DNA of 35,009 nt from Nitrospirota bacterium (lineage in GTDB: Bacteria; Nitrospirota; Thermodesulfovibrionia; Thermodesulfovibrionales; Magnetobacteriaceae), in assembly GCA_015233245.1 (NCBI GenBank), contig JADFYB010000017.1, forward strand, positions 1-35,009. The letters are read 5' to 3'. Of this stretch, positions 24,955 to 28,355 are shown one piece after another. Position 1 is the first letter of the stretch; every line of letters begins with the position of its first letter. The notes below the pieces were generated by a model. It saw nothing but the letters and a program-made list of their open reading frames with translations, did not search any database and was not told the origin of the DNA. The translations under genes and the position numbers were made by a program.

Positions 24955-25485
24955 ATGAAAATTAAAAAACCGGTATTTAACATATACAACACAGTACGAA
25001 CAAGGGTTACGGAATCATTGACAAACAGTATCTGCCTTACAGCAGTAATGCTTATTGTTTTAACTGCAGGTGCTTTTATGCCGGGCGTCTCAGAGGGTGT
25101 AGAGGCAAGGCGGGAGGTTTTGCCGAATGGGTTAAAGGTAATAGTGTCAGAGCGGCATAATCTCCCTATAGTGAAGCTTGAGATGATTGTTGCAGCCTCA
25201 CGGCTGGATGAGCCAGCGGCTAAGGCTGGGCTATCCCACCTTGTTGCCGAAATGCTACTTGAGGGCACTAAGGAGCACACATCTAAGGAAATCATAGAGG
25301 AGATAGAGTTTATGGGCGCCTCCTTAGAGGTAAACTCAGAAGCTGACTATACCTCGATAAGACTCTCAGTTCTTAAAAAAGACTTCAGCAGAGCATTTGA
25401 AATATTCGCCGACTGTGTAATGCATCCAGCATTTACAGAGTCAGAATTAAGCCAAAAAAAGGATTTGGTTCTTGGCGCTTTGTGA
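24955..25485 (+). CDS. M16 alpha-type peptidase, N-terminal fragment
   Basis: Encodes 176 residues ending at the internal TGA. It has a hydrophobic export segment (residues about 24-48), then REVLPNGLKVIVSERHNLPI and the degenerate zinc motif AGLSHLVAEMLLEGT. A GGAGAG ribosome binding site precedes the ATG, 24 bases after the first M16 gene. Alone it lacks the C-terminal half of the first M16 domain, so it would be unlikely to fold into a working subunit. Confidence 0.6.
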   Translation: MKIKKPVFNIYNTVRTRVTESLTNSICLTAVMLIVLTAGAFMPGVSEGVEARREVLPNGLKVIVSERHNLPIVKLEMIVAASRLDEPAAKAGLSHLVAEMLLEGTKEHTSKEIIEEIEFMGASLEVNSEADYTSIRLSVLKKDFSRAFEIFADCVMHPAFTESELSQKKDLVLGAL

Positions 25486-25509
25486 CAAGAGGAGGAATCC
25501 CCGGAGTTT

Positions 25510-26367
25510 GTGGCGAATAGGGCTTTTATTTCGGAGGTTTATGGAAACAGCCCATACGGCAGGCTCTCAACCGGGACTCCAAAAACTATTAATACCATAA
25601 AGCAGCAGGATTTAGTTAATTTCCACCATGAGCGCTACGTTCCGTCAAACAGCATTCTTGCCGTAGCCGGTGATATTACATATGATGAGGTTGCAGCGTT
25701 GGTAGATAAGCACATGGGCAACTGGAAAGAAGGACACGTAAAAGCGCGTGGTGCAATTAAGTCGGAAAAATATCTCACAAAGAAAAACGTCACACTCATA
25801 GACAGAGACATAACTCAAGCCAACATAATACTTGGCGGAGTCGGCATAAAACGTGACAATCCCGACTACTACACAATTAGCGTTATGAACTATATTTTAG
25901 GCGGCGGAGGGTTTGCCTCAAGAATGGTTAAAACCATAAGGGACGATCTGGGGCTTGACTATGATGTTCACTCGCACTTCCTTGCTTACAAGTATGGCAG
26001 AGACTTCAGGGTAACTACTCAGACAAAAAATGAATTTGCCAAAACCTCCATTGCTGAAATTTTAAAGCAAATAAAAATAATGAAAGAAACCCTCGTAAAG
26101 GATGAAGAGCTTAGTGATGCAAAGTCATATTTAACCGGCAGTTTTCCCAGACGCCTTGATACGACCGATAAAGTTGTAACCTTTATGGCTCAGACCGAGT
26201 TTTATGGACTGGGACTTGACTACGATAAGCGCTATATAGACTACATTAACGGCATAACCAAAGAAGCTGTGAAACGTGTTGCTTTGAAGTATCTGAATGA
26301 CACCAACTATCAATTAGTCATAGTGGGAAGTAAGAGCAAAATTAATGCGGCACAGGACGTAAAATAA
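25510..26367 (+). CDS. M16 alpha-type peptidase, C-terminal fragment
   Basis: Encodes 285 residues if restarted at GTG 25510, in the same frame as the preceding fragment. GAGGAGG at 25489-25495 lies 14 bases before the GTG, long but possible for re-initiation. It contains the rest of the first M16 domain (SEVYGNSPYGRLSTGTPKTI, RYVPSNSILAVAGDI) and the second domain (QANIILGGVGIKRDNPDYY, YILGGGGFASRMVKTIRDDL). It carries no export signal, so a separately made product would stay in the cytoplasm. Confidence 0.6.
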   Translation: MANRAFISEVYGNSPYGRLSTGTPKTINTIKQQDLVNFHHERYVPSNSILAVAGDITYDEVAALVDKHMGNWKEGHVKARGAIKSEKYLTKKNVTLIDRDITQANIILGGVGIKRDNPDYYTISVMNYILGGGGFASRMVKTIRDDLGLDYDVHSHFLAYKYGRDFRVTTQTKNEFAKTSIAEILKQIKIMKETLVKDEELSDAKSYLTGSFPRRLDTTDKVVTFMAQTEFYGLGLDYDKRYIDYINGITKEAVKRVALKYLNDTNYQLVIVGSKSKINAAQDVK

Positions 26368-26372
26368 CCGCA

Positions 26373-27248
26373 GTGGTTGAATCGTTAAAGACTCCCGATG
26401 CTATGCAGCAGTGGTCACAGAAAAAATACAAAATGGGTAAGACTGTTGGGTTAGTGCCTACAATGGGAGCTCTCCACAGAGGACACATTAGTCTGATTGA
26501 AGCCTCAAAGCAGGAAAATGACCTCACCGTGGTAAGCATCTTCGTTAATCCAACTCAGTTTTCCGCAGGGGAGGATTTTGAAAAATATCCGAGAGATTTT
26601 GCCGGCGATTGTAAAAAACTTGAACAGGCTGGCATAGACGCTCTGTTTTTGCCTAAAACCTCGGATATGTATAGCGAGGGGTTTGCAACATATATAGAGG
26701 TAAGGGGAATTTCCAACAGACTATGCGGCGCTTACAGAGCAGGACACTTCACAGGTGTTGCAACGATTGTAGCCAAACTCTTTAACACCGTAATGCCAAC
26801 ACATGCATACTTTGGACTCAAGGACTACCAGCAGTGTGTAGTCATCAGAAAAATGGTGTCAGACCTTAACATACCGGTTACTCTGAGGTTTTGCGACACA
26901 GTGAGAGAACACGATGGTCTTGCAATGAGCTCAAGAAACACATATCTGACCTCTGAACAAAGACTTGATGCCCCCATACTTTACAAGGCACTGTGTAAGG
27001 CCAGCTTATTGATAAGTGAAAGACGGCTGGTTAAATTCAGAGAGGCCGCTTCACTTATGCAGCAACTACTAAAATCCTCGGCACACATTAGTGAAATTCA
27101 GTATGGCTCCGTGTATGACTCAGAGACACTTGATGATATTTCAGAGCAAGATGCATCCTCTTACAGCGGAAAACCAGTGGCTCTTGCCATAGCCGTGAAA
27201 ATCGGCTCTACCCGCTTGATAGATAACCTGATAGTCACCGTCCCATAA
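26373..27248 (+). CDS. panC: Pantoate--beta-alanine ligase (pantothenate synthetase)
   Basis: Joins pantoate and beta-alanine using ATP to form pantothenate, the precursor of CoA and the phosphopantetheine arm. The 291-residue length is normal. Signatures are GLVPTMGALHRGHISLI (HxGH adenylate site), SIFVNPTQFSAGEDFEKYPR, YFGLKDYQQCVVIRKM and AMSSRNTYLT. The start is GTG at 26373, 5 bases after the M16 stop; no clear ribosome binding site is seen, so translation may depend on coupling to the upstream frame. If that frame is silenced by its internal TGA, polar effects on panC are possible. panB and panD are not in the window. Confidence 0.95.
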   Translation: MVESLKTPDAMQQWSQKKYKMGKTVGLVPTMGALHRGHISLIEASKQENDLTVVSIFVNPTQFSAGEDFEKYPRDFAGDCKKLEQAGIDALFLPKTSDMYSEGFATYIEVRGISNRLCGAYRAGHFTGVATIVAKLFNTVMPTHAYFGLKDYQQCVVIRKMVSDLNIPVTLRFCDTVREHDGLAMSSRNTYLTSEQRLDAPILYKALCKASLLISERRLVKFREAASLMQQLLKSSAHISEIQYGSVYDSETLDDISEQDASSYSGKPVALAIAVKIGSTRLIDNLIVTVP

Positions 27249-27259
27249 CTTTCCGCATG

Positions 27260-27384
27260 ATACCAAGCCGCATCCTATCGCCTAACTTTGTTGGCATCGT
27301 CAAAAGCTCCTCAACGTACTCAAAAGTACGCCTGCGTCGCTTTCTCCTTGCCGCCTCGTTATGCTTCTGACTGCAGCTCGGTAT
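27260..27384. repeat. Imperfect palindromic (MITE/REP-like) element
   Basis: About 60-base arms face each other around a central hairpin CGTACT-caaa-AGTACG (27315-27330). The outer ends ATACCAAGC.GCA and TGC.GCTCGGTAT are near-perfect inverted copies; along the arms, blocks GC.TAAC, GGCA, AAAGC and CA.CGTACT recur in inverted order. It fills the panC-hydrolase gap and its last bases contain the ATG used by the hydrolase. Such elements are usually dispersed copies; copy number cannot be checked here. Confidence 0.6.
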
Positions 27385-28135
27385 GACAGAACTTCATTTT
27401 ATAAAGGCTGGCTCAGGGGACAAAAAAATTGTATTTATACACGGAAACCTTGCCTCTTCGCTGTGGTGGAAAAAAACCCTTTCAGATATTAAAGCACCAT
27501 GTGAGGGCTATGCTGTGGATCTTCCGGGATGTGGCAAAACCAAAGAGACCAAAGCTGTGACAACACTTGAATATTTAGCCTCGCTTATTAACAATTTTTT
27601 GACAACATCAGAATTAGAGCGGGTAGCCCTTGTAGGGCATTCTATGGGAGGCGGCATAGCCCAGTTGACAGCGATAAATTATCCGGAGCGTATTGAAAAA
27701 CTGGTGCTGGTAAACTCCATCCCGATGCACGGATTTCAGGGGTTTTATAGCTATGGAGAAGACAAACTCAGACAGTTAAGACAACGCGACACGGTATTTA
27801 GAAAATCAATCAAAAATGTGATGCCAAAACTTAGAGATTCGGAATTTTTTGAGGAAATAGTAACACAGGCAAAAGCAATTTCGGATAATACCTACATTAG
27901 CCATTCTAAGGCCATGTATGATGCCAACTGGACAGACAGGATCGGTATGATAAACTCTCCAACCCTATTTATACAAGGACAGCTGGACAGATTTGTAACA
28001 ATGAAAGGGAGCCTGAAAACAGCTAAAGCAATTAAAAATTGTATCTTTGTAACCATTCCCAACTGCGGGCACAGCCCTATGGTAGAAGTCCCTGATGAAT
28101 TCAACAAGGTTTTGTTTGATTTTGTTGGCTGTTAA
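27383..28135 (+). CDS. Alpha/beta-fold hydrolase
   Basis: Encodes 250 residues with the alpha/beta hydrolase fold. The oxyanion-loop HGN (VFIHGNLASSLWW), nucleophile elbow GHSMGG, acid Asp in GQLDRFVT and catalytic His in NCGHSPMVEVP are all in the expected order. Esterase, lactonase or C-C hydrolase activity is possible; the substrate cannot be named. The only plausible start, ATG 27383, lies at the very end of a palindromic repeat and lacks a recognisable ribosome binding site, so the translation start may have been supplied or altered by that insertion. The gene is followed by a 9-bp inverted repeat and a dispersed-type repeat before the sulfur-relay promoter. Confidence 0.88.
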   Translation: MTELHFIKAGSGDKKIVFIHGNLASSLWWKKTLSDIKAPCEGYAVDLPGCGKTKETKAVTTLEYLASLINNFLTTSELERVALVGHSMGGGIAQLTAINYPERIEKLVLVNSIPMHGFQGFYSYGEDKLRQLRQRDTVFRKSIKNVMPKLRDSEFFEEIVTQAKAISDNTYISHSKAMYDANWTDRIGMINSPTLFIQGQLDRFVTMKGSLKTAKAIKNCIFVTIPNCGHSPMVEVPDEFNKVLFDFVGC

Positions 28136-28178: not shown

Positions 28179-28205
28179 TTTAAGTAAGGAACCCTTAAAA
28201 AGATT

Positions 28206-28275
28206 AATCCGCAGATGACACAGATGAACGCAGATAGAAAAATATATATCTGTGAAAATCTGCGCAATCTGCGGA
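28206..28275. repeat. Imperfect palindromic dispersed-type repeat (CCGCAGAT family)
   Basis: The left arm 28206-28236 (ATCCGCAGATGACACAGAT then GAACGCAGATA) and the right arm 28247-28275 (TATCTGTGAAAATCTGCG then CAATCTGCGGA) are interrupted inverted copies. This type of sequence recurs as dispersed noncoding repeats in many bacterial genomes. It occupies part of the 315-base gap 28136-28450, which has no gene and otherwise holds the preceding inverted repeat and the promoter at 28356-28385. Confidence 0.6.
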
Positions 28276-28355
28276 AAAAATCCTTTTTCTATATTCTCAA
28301 AGCTTTACTATTTTTGGACATTTTCATTTTGATTAAACAAATCCTGGTATAAGTG

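Follow-up and report, generated by a model that had tools for sequence, protein, structure and literature searches.

The window, by which we mean the whole stretch of 35,009 nucleotides analysed here (contig JADFYB010000017.1 of Nitrospirota bacterium assembly GCA_015233245.1), carries panC followed in the same direction by an alpha/beta hydrolase gene, with a mobile element between the two (Table 1). An earlier note, made from the letters of the window, had described an imperfect palindrome of roughly 125 bases with ATACC/GGTAT ends in this gap. The palindrome is present and lies between the panC stop codon and the hydrolase, and alignment with its copies sets its length at 123 bp.

Table 1. 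Features at the panC-hydrolase junction (window coordinates).
Feature	Position	Strand	Basis and remarks
panC (pantoate-beta-alanine ligase), upstream neighbour	26373..27248	+	Pfam PF02569 5e-102; stop TAA 27246-27248
Original start codon (ATG) position	27257..27259	+	alignment with G003 and G001 empty sites
37-codon ORF from surviving original ATG	27257..27370	+	TGA end 12 nt before hydrolase ATG
Left TGA target duplication copy	27258..27260	+	TNA rule, 79 copies
Mobile element	27261..27383	+	123 bp, TACC...GGTA; copy alignment, copies, empty sites
Left terminal inverted repeat TACCAAGCCGCATCC	27261..27275	+	copy alignment; resembles IS630-type element ends
Reverse-strand cassette ATG (MPTKLGDRMRLG...)	27295..27297	-	in frame through left end
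Conserved core CTCCTCAACGTAC-loop-GTACGCCTGCG	27307..27336	+	phylum searches
GAGGAG, Shine-Dalgarno-like in minus-strand reading of element	27307..27312	-	
Right terminal inverted repeat, minus-strand reading TACCGAGCTGCAGTC	27369..27383	-	copy alignment
Present start codon: A = element's last base, TG = target duplication	27383..27385	+	
Alpha/beta hydrolase gene, 250 aa	27383..28135	+	PF00561 1.6e-26; N-terminus aligns with G001, G002 and G003 orthologues
Right TGA target duplication copy	27384..27386	+	

The element occurs once in the window. In its own genome (G000) it has at least 41 matches at about 40 places, the second best with an E value of 7e-49 (40 of 81 candidates scored); one copy accounts for two of these matches, L013 appears to be identical to L014, and contig ends truncate several others. 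Its repeat status is far above chance. Thirty of the matches were read as loci, and three of them (L006, L016, L017), truncated by contig ends, were left out below. Six of the 40 genomes searched, the own genome included, match the element, namely four of the same genus, which may be Magnetobacterium, G006 and G030. All copy numbers are lower bounds, with up to 21 matches scored per relative, and four element loci were read in G002. Among the relatives, copies were left out if their best match did not reach near both element ends. The length is 122 bp in 34 and 123 bp in 22 of the 74 copies measured. Small additional hairpins of the CCCCTGAAGGGGAATCCCC type lie within some copies, in the loop of L021, L024, L026 and L027 and in the right arm of L019 and L023, and distinguish orthologous copies (L027 from L108, L161 from L131).

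The insertion has left a target duplication of the form TNA. Of the 27 complete copies in the own genome, 14 are bordered by identical TNA triplets and three by unlike ones, while the other ten are without TNA on at least one side. Taking all 79 two-ended copies from six genomes, TNA stands on both sides in 45, and in 40 of these the triplets are identical (TTA 18, TGA 13, TAA 8, TCA 1), as compared to a mean of 15.4 and a maximum of 28 identical pairs in 10,000 shuffled pairings. The triplet at the window locus is TGA.

The same gap is without the element in G003 and G001, both of the same genus, where 11 and 10 bases, respectively, the panC stop included, separate the frame of panC from that of the hydrolase. 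The empty site in G003 reads CCATAACTTTCCGC directly followed by ATGGCTGACCTG, as against CCATAACTTTCCGCATGA-(TACC...GGTA)-TGACAGAACTT in the window. The joined flanks of 26 own-genome copies (L013, being the same as L014, was left out) were then compared with both genomes. In G003, 17 of the 26 loci gave a contiguous match across the junction, although some of the weaker junction matches (about 80% identity) may be paralogues. Split matches, which filled sites or larger inserts would produce, were seen at L007, L009, L014, L026 and L028, and L004, L005, L020 and L030 gave no spanning match. In the 23 junction alignments, which cover 14 loci, the relative has one TNA against two in the window genome, among others at L002, L012, L021 and L022, and in G001 at L011; those of L008, L010, L015, L018, L024 and L029 are less clean. 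The view of the earlier note that the palindrome is mobile is therefore borne out by copies with defined ends, the TGA duplication and the empty sites; the element is neither single-copy nor conserved upstream of the orthologous gene, the gap being empty in two genomes of the genus. That the element is a fixed part of the panC operon, as a regulatory RNA or a terminator hairpin, is extremely unlikely, since, although it folds and lies between co-directional genes, the empty sites already contradict it, many copies lie elsewhere in the genome, Rfam gave no match in 26900-27700 and no terminator-like site was found in the element.

At L027 (G000) and L108 (G001) the element occupies the same site, but in G003, the closer relative, this site (L213) appears to be perfectly empty; this pattern reflects either precise loss or two insertions at one site. 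In G002 the hydrolase and panC are on different contigs (L092 and L060) with a right-half remnant of the element upstream of the hydrolase, as if a rearrangement breakpoint lay at the panC-hydrolase gap.

With a size of 123 bp, no transposase gene, numerous copies, terminal inverted repeats of the form TACCAAGY.../...RCTTGGTA and a target duplication matched by empty sites, the element has the properties of a MITE, that is, of a non-autonomous transposon with a usual form of 122-123 bp. The ends point to its mobiliser. A narrow search for the end pattern found 15 places in G000 and a wider one 29 in G001, 55 in G003, 351 in G002, 53 in G006 and two in G030, with no match to the reversed control of the wider pattern; the unpaired ends include those of further small families that share these ends and differ in their interiors. 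The number in G002, against 29-55 in G001, G003 and G006, represents a strong expansion (L189, L190).

In G001, TACC-type ends (TACCAAGTAGCAATC...GCTACTTGGTA) surround a decayed transposase with HTH_33 and DDE_3 pieces (L185/L192), of which G003 has partial relatives. L185, the one fully readable TACC-ended IS, is decayed and its flanks, TAA and TCA, are not identical. A second type of ends, TTCC...GGAA with TAA on either side, was found at L197 in the own genome, L206 in G003 (both 1004 bp) and L200 in G005, of the same family (1120 bp). The transposase pieces scanned match NCBIfam NF033545 (IS630), Pfam HTH_33 or DDE_3, the NCBIfam cut-off being passed by the C-terminal piece of L200 only. 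Hence, elements with an IS630-type transposase share the ends of the element (L185/L192) or carry the second type (L197, L206, L200). The duplication is not the TA known from RUP, as identical TNA triplets were found in 40 of 45 copies and TAA at L197, L206 and L200, and the element was therefore filed as a variant of an IS630-mobilised element. Two own-genome copies, L028 and L030, have second-type-like ends around the same interior, which suggests that ends can be exchanged, and a further copy, L021, is inserted within a second-type IS.

On this evidence it is very likely that the element is a MITE with a TNA target and a link to IS630. An IS630 (Tc1/mariner-like) transposase would most likely move it in trans, with insertion at TNA and duplication of those 3 bp. 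The distributions of transposase and element coincide incompletely: neither transposase query had a match in G002, which has the most ends, in G006 or in G030, and G005 and G013 contain IS630-type transposases and show no match to the element. In G013 (contig C62), IS630-type elements with repeated 16-bp ends form a tandem array (L194, L199).

Within the IS5 family, the IS1031 group is known to generate TNA duplications, and the 3-bp duplication of the element might thus suggest an IS5-family transposase. We consider this very improbable and have rejected it: DDE_Tnp_1, the IS5-type Pfam family searched, has no member in the complete genome of G001 and four in G000, around which a single weak end pair with identical TNA was found (L170, 12/16), unlike that of the element, while similar ends do occur on IS630-type elements.

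What the insertion did to the hydrolase can be read by comparison with the relatives, whose gene begins with ATGG in G003 and G001 and ATGA in G002. By this alignment, the insertion target is the TGA within the ATGA with which the hydrolase gene opens. With A as the last base of the element and TGA as the duplicated triplet, ATGA arises at both junctions, and the start codon and the whole N-terminus were kept. The protein begins with MTELHFIKAG, matching MTELHF in G002 and MADLHF in G003 and G001, and the orthologues of all three genomes align from the same ATG. A scan of a further collection of genome contigs with the hydrolase yielded a single, remote relative. The earlier note had counted the hydrolase ATG as part of the right end of the element, which is correct for the A, whereas TG is duplicated target. 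The start codon was therefore rebuilt, not supplied by the element as had been proposed, and the original ATG still exists at 27257, separated from the panC stop by 8 nt, a spacing also seen at the empty site of G003. The same note had suggested that the insertion may account for the missing ribosome binding site. This was not supported: no Shine-Dalgarno sequence precedes the hydrolase start in the empty sites of G003 (TAACTTTCCGCATG) and G001 (TGATTTTTGCATG), and hence its absence is probably ancestral. None is present in the forward orientation of the element, either. With no Shine-Dalgarno sequence and a start 7-8 nt past the panC stop, translation in the relatives is probably coupled. In the window this distance has grown to 134 nt.

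The surviving ATG opens the 37-codon ORF, which runs through the element in the same frame as the present ATG. A relay is therefore conceivable in which ribosomes finishing panC would reinitiate at the old ATG (27257), read the ORF through the hairpin to its stop at 27368-27370 and reinitiate a second time 12 nt further at 27383. Judged from sequence, this is a plausible mechanism, to which we assign nearly an even chance. The ORF itself is not special to the window copy, as 19 of the 22 123-bp copies, if preceded by ATGA, would have their stop at the same codon; special is only the joining of the preceding ATG to it. The forward frame is open in frame +0 in 38 of 74 copies, with 14.2 expected from base shuffling, an excess that was set aside as evidence because the copies are related.

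Alternatively, the hydrolase could be translated independently from 27383 without a Shine-Dalgarno sequence, coupling to panC now being irrelevant. The intact start codon and the likewise Shine-Dalgarno-free empty sites of G003 and G001 speak for this. In the minimum-energy fold, however, A and U of the start codon are predicted to be paired at the base of the hairpin. Such pairing would impede free initiation, and we rate independent initiation as possible at somewhat below an even chance. The fold of the window element reaches -34.2 kcal/mol (shuffle mean -27.5; z -2.0), and since 10 of 200 shuffles folded equally well, folding by itself is modest evidence. No promoter was predicted in the element, the one weak minus-strand match lying outside.

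An ATG lies on a junction in 23 of 79 copies and opens at least 150 codons in four, 68 and 83 codons in two and at most 40 in the rest. The four long frames are the hydrolase, a Y-family DNA polymerase (L102, PF00817 2e-46), a pseudopilin-like protein (L111, N_methyl) and a kinase-like protein (L101). In L101 and L111, the reversed element reads GAGGAG, 9-10 bases, ATG and 12 codons of the host frame, of the type MPTKLGDRMQLG. This arrangement, with GAGGAG before an ATG that is in frame through ATN at the junction, is intact in the reverse orientation in 32 of 68 same-genus copies and in the forward orientation in none, the rate in base shuffles being 0.025. In the common 122-bp form, the incoming frame stops at a TGA 2-3 nt before the element's own ATG (31 of the 50 copies that have the cassette ATG). 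Read in reverse, about half of the same-genus copies thus contain what looks like a ready-made restart cassette, consisting of GAGGAG, usually a stop, ATG and in-frame codons to the end. In the window copy, the cassette frame points away from the hydrolase and meets a stop 7 codons beyond the left end. A role of the cassette in serving the hydrolase was therefore rejected, the window copy being oppositely oriented and no copy having a forward cassette.

Intact cassettes are associated with host genes. A frame of at least 85 codons continues into the host in 13 of 30 copies with an intact cassette and 3 of 35 others (Fisher p 0.0015); the 65 copies compared exclude duplicate or orthologous ones (L128, L108, L014) and all outside the genus. 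The deduplicated counts at 60, 85 and 120 codons, for which L128, L108, L013 and L014 were omitted, preceded the choice of 85 for the final comparison. At the left end, frame 0 is open for at least 85 codons in 16 of 65 copies and frame 2 in three; at the right end, the numbers are three for frame 0 and five for frame 2. Frame 1 did not serve as a control, as its first codon is TNA and thus in many cases a stop. The difference between the 16 of left-end frame 0 and each control of three (p 0.002) and the p-value above are approximate, since copies are related by descent.

Pfam scans of the 13 fused hosts were run on ten with the leader and two without it, L152 being left aside. The hosts include UbiA, DNA polymerase III delta-prime, a GtrA-like protein, type II secretion system (T2SS) protein G and an NRPS; the host of L029 had no Pfam match. 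In 12 of the 13 fused copies, a stop followed by an ATG lies within the element, with GAGGAG before the ATG; the incoming upstream frame ends 2-3 nt before this ATG in nine and 13-21 nt before it in three. L115, a 123-bp copy, shows straight read-through within an adenylation domain. Five hosts could be compared with empty sites in relatives, and in these the insertion lies near the native start. An in-frame ATG is found upstream in the empty site at 3 codons for L008 and 11 for L011 (both relatives in either case) and at 6 for L029 (G001 only), while at L019 and L027 the frame is open backwards for 15 and 17 codons without an ATG. The leader MPTKL(V/G)DRMPLG(L/I)IGHERA precedes delta-prime in G000, G003 and G001 (with Pfam confirmation for G000), and the element appears to supply the start of this gene in three species. 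Other copies, too, appear from their sequences to carry their own translation start signals and to give host genes new beginnings.

The interior of the element extends beyond the genus. In the phylum, 43 of 395 genomes match the window copy at an E value of 1e-4 (with up to two matches scored per genome), and the exact pattern CTCAACGTACN{3,8}GTACGCCTGCG is found in 50 of the 395, with none in the control. Longer matches occur in five more genomes of the order beyond G030 (G204, G231, G257, G314 and G393). Outside the order mostly the core alone matches, the longest match being in G042 (query 13-116). Other families of the phylum also have this core of about 30 nt, there enclosed by palindromes whose ends differ: at 16 of 17 loci tested it lies within a palindrome of about 57-63 nt on each side with ends of its own, under a strict palindrome-end test that the window copy failed. 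Half of the 20 loci fetched are directly upstream of one and the same gene (ATGGATGTACAAGA...) and are hence orthologous, not independent; they come from ten genomes in three genera of another class (L246-L248, L252-L256, L258, L263). A relative of the element was found on a Trichlorobacter lovleyi plasmid. Pattern scans of viral contigs gave no match to the core, and there was none in phages.

A start codon follows 9-23 nt on at 4 of 17 core loci (16 from other families, one plasmid), GAGG being part of the search pattern; at L256 and L258 the cassette frame continues through the gene behind. The start cassette as the reason for the phylum-wide core is therefore unsupported, and the core is kept there for another reason.

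A restart cassette would explain why copies lie at the 5' ends of genes of the host and share their reading frame. We consider it probable that this is a transposon family with a translation relay, in which insertion at a 5' end would be nearly harmless and host N-termini, including that of delta-prime in three species, would be rewritten. It is rather unlikely, by contrast, that the in-frame fusions are merely tolerated by-products, the cassette being accidental and the hosts using other starts. That no long host frame follows 17 of the 30 intact cassettes would fit such by-products, as would the start codon at cassette spacing in only four of the core loci of other families and the plasmid; the relatedness of copies also means that the tests are not fully independent. 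By-products would leave unexplained the bias in frame and orientation (16 against 3, 3 and 5 of 65), the association of intact cassettes with host frames and the same arrangement at delta-prime in three species.

Several known repeats resemble the element. Like it, REP and BIME sequences with their RAYT transposases are dispersed palindromes; they are not known to make a target duplication. REP units are given as 20-40 bp in the abstract of PMC3733652, whereas the present element is about 120 bp long (123 bp in the window) with full ends and a TNA duplication, and so lies outside this class. RUP of Streptococcus pneumoniae, according to excerpts of PMC2229807, is 107 bp long, has IS630-Spn1 as its proposed mobiliser and TA as its target, and is catalogued there without an open reading frame. 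Both are short palindromic MITEs with IS630-type ends, many copies and insertion in an IS (here L021); as far as these excerpts go, they differ in that RUP has the TA target and no ORF listed, and the present element the TNA duplication and a start cassette in many copies. ORF fusions are mentioned for RPE (Rickettsia palindromic elements), ERIC and Correia elements in the same excerpts of this review by Delihas (PMC2229807), and in-frame fusions of RPE in excerpts of a 2024 review (PMC10969869). RPE, ERIC and the 107-bp Correia element, as these excerpts present them, are likewise short palindromes forming in-frame fusions with genes of their hosts; a difference is that all but one of our fused copies restart inside the element, L115 alone being read through within a gene. 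Multicopy palindromic sequences have also been reported from Geobacteraceae (excerpts of PMC2700814, PMC2996986 and PMC3543383), where one of the palindromic intergenic families, in the excerpt of PMC2996986, also occurs inside genes without frameshifts. These resemble the element as intergenic palindromic families, by description in the excerpts and not by alignment. Among the open papers searched, titles and opening lines of abstracts contained no recognised description of the element.

The window locus illustrates how a mobile palindrome can strike a start codon and yet leave one, by means of a TGA target and a last base A. If true, the reverse-strand cassette would make such elements agents that replace gene starts and N-termini. 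The core of about 30 nt among different ends suggests that MITEs can keep their interior while swapping the ends recognised by the transposase. For annotation, start codons beside such repeats, like short ORFs within the repeats, are easy to misassign.

Two further observations concern the surroundings. Behind the hydrolase, at 28205-28280, lies another likely dispersed repeat (...ATCTGCGCAATCTGCGGA...), and numerous places in G001 and G003 match similar pieces located next to the own-genome copies L014 and L026. At 24955-26367, an apparent single peptidase gene (M16-like by eye) is divided by a stop into two ORFs that share a frame.
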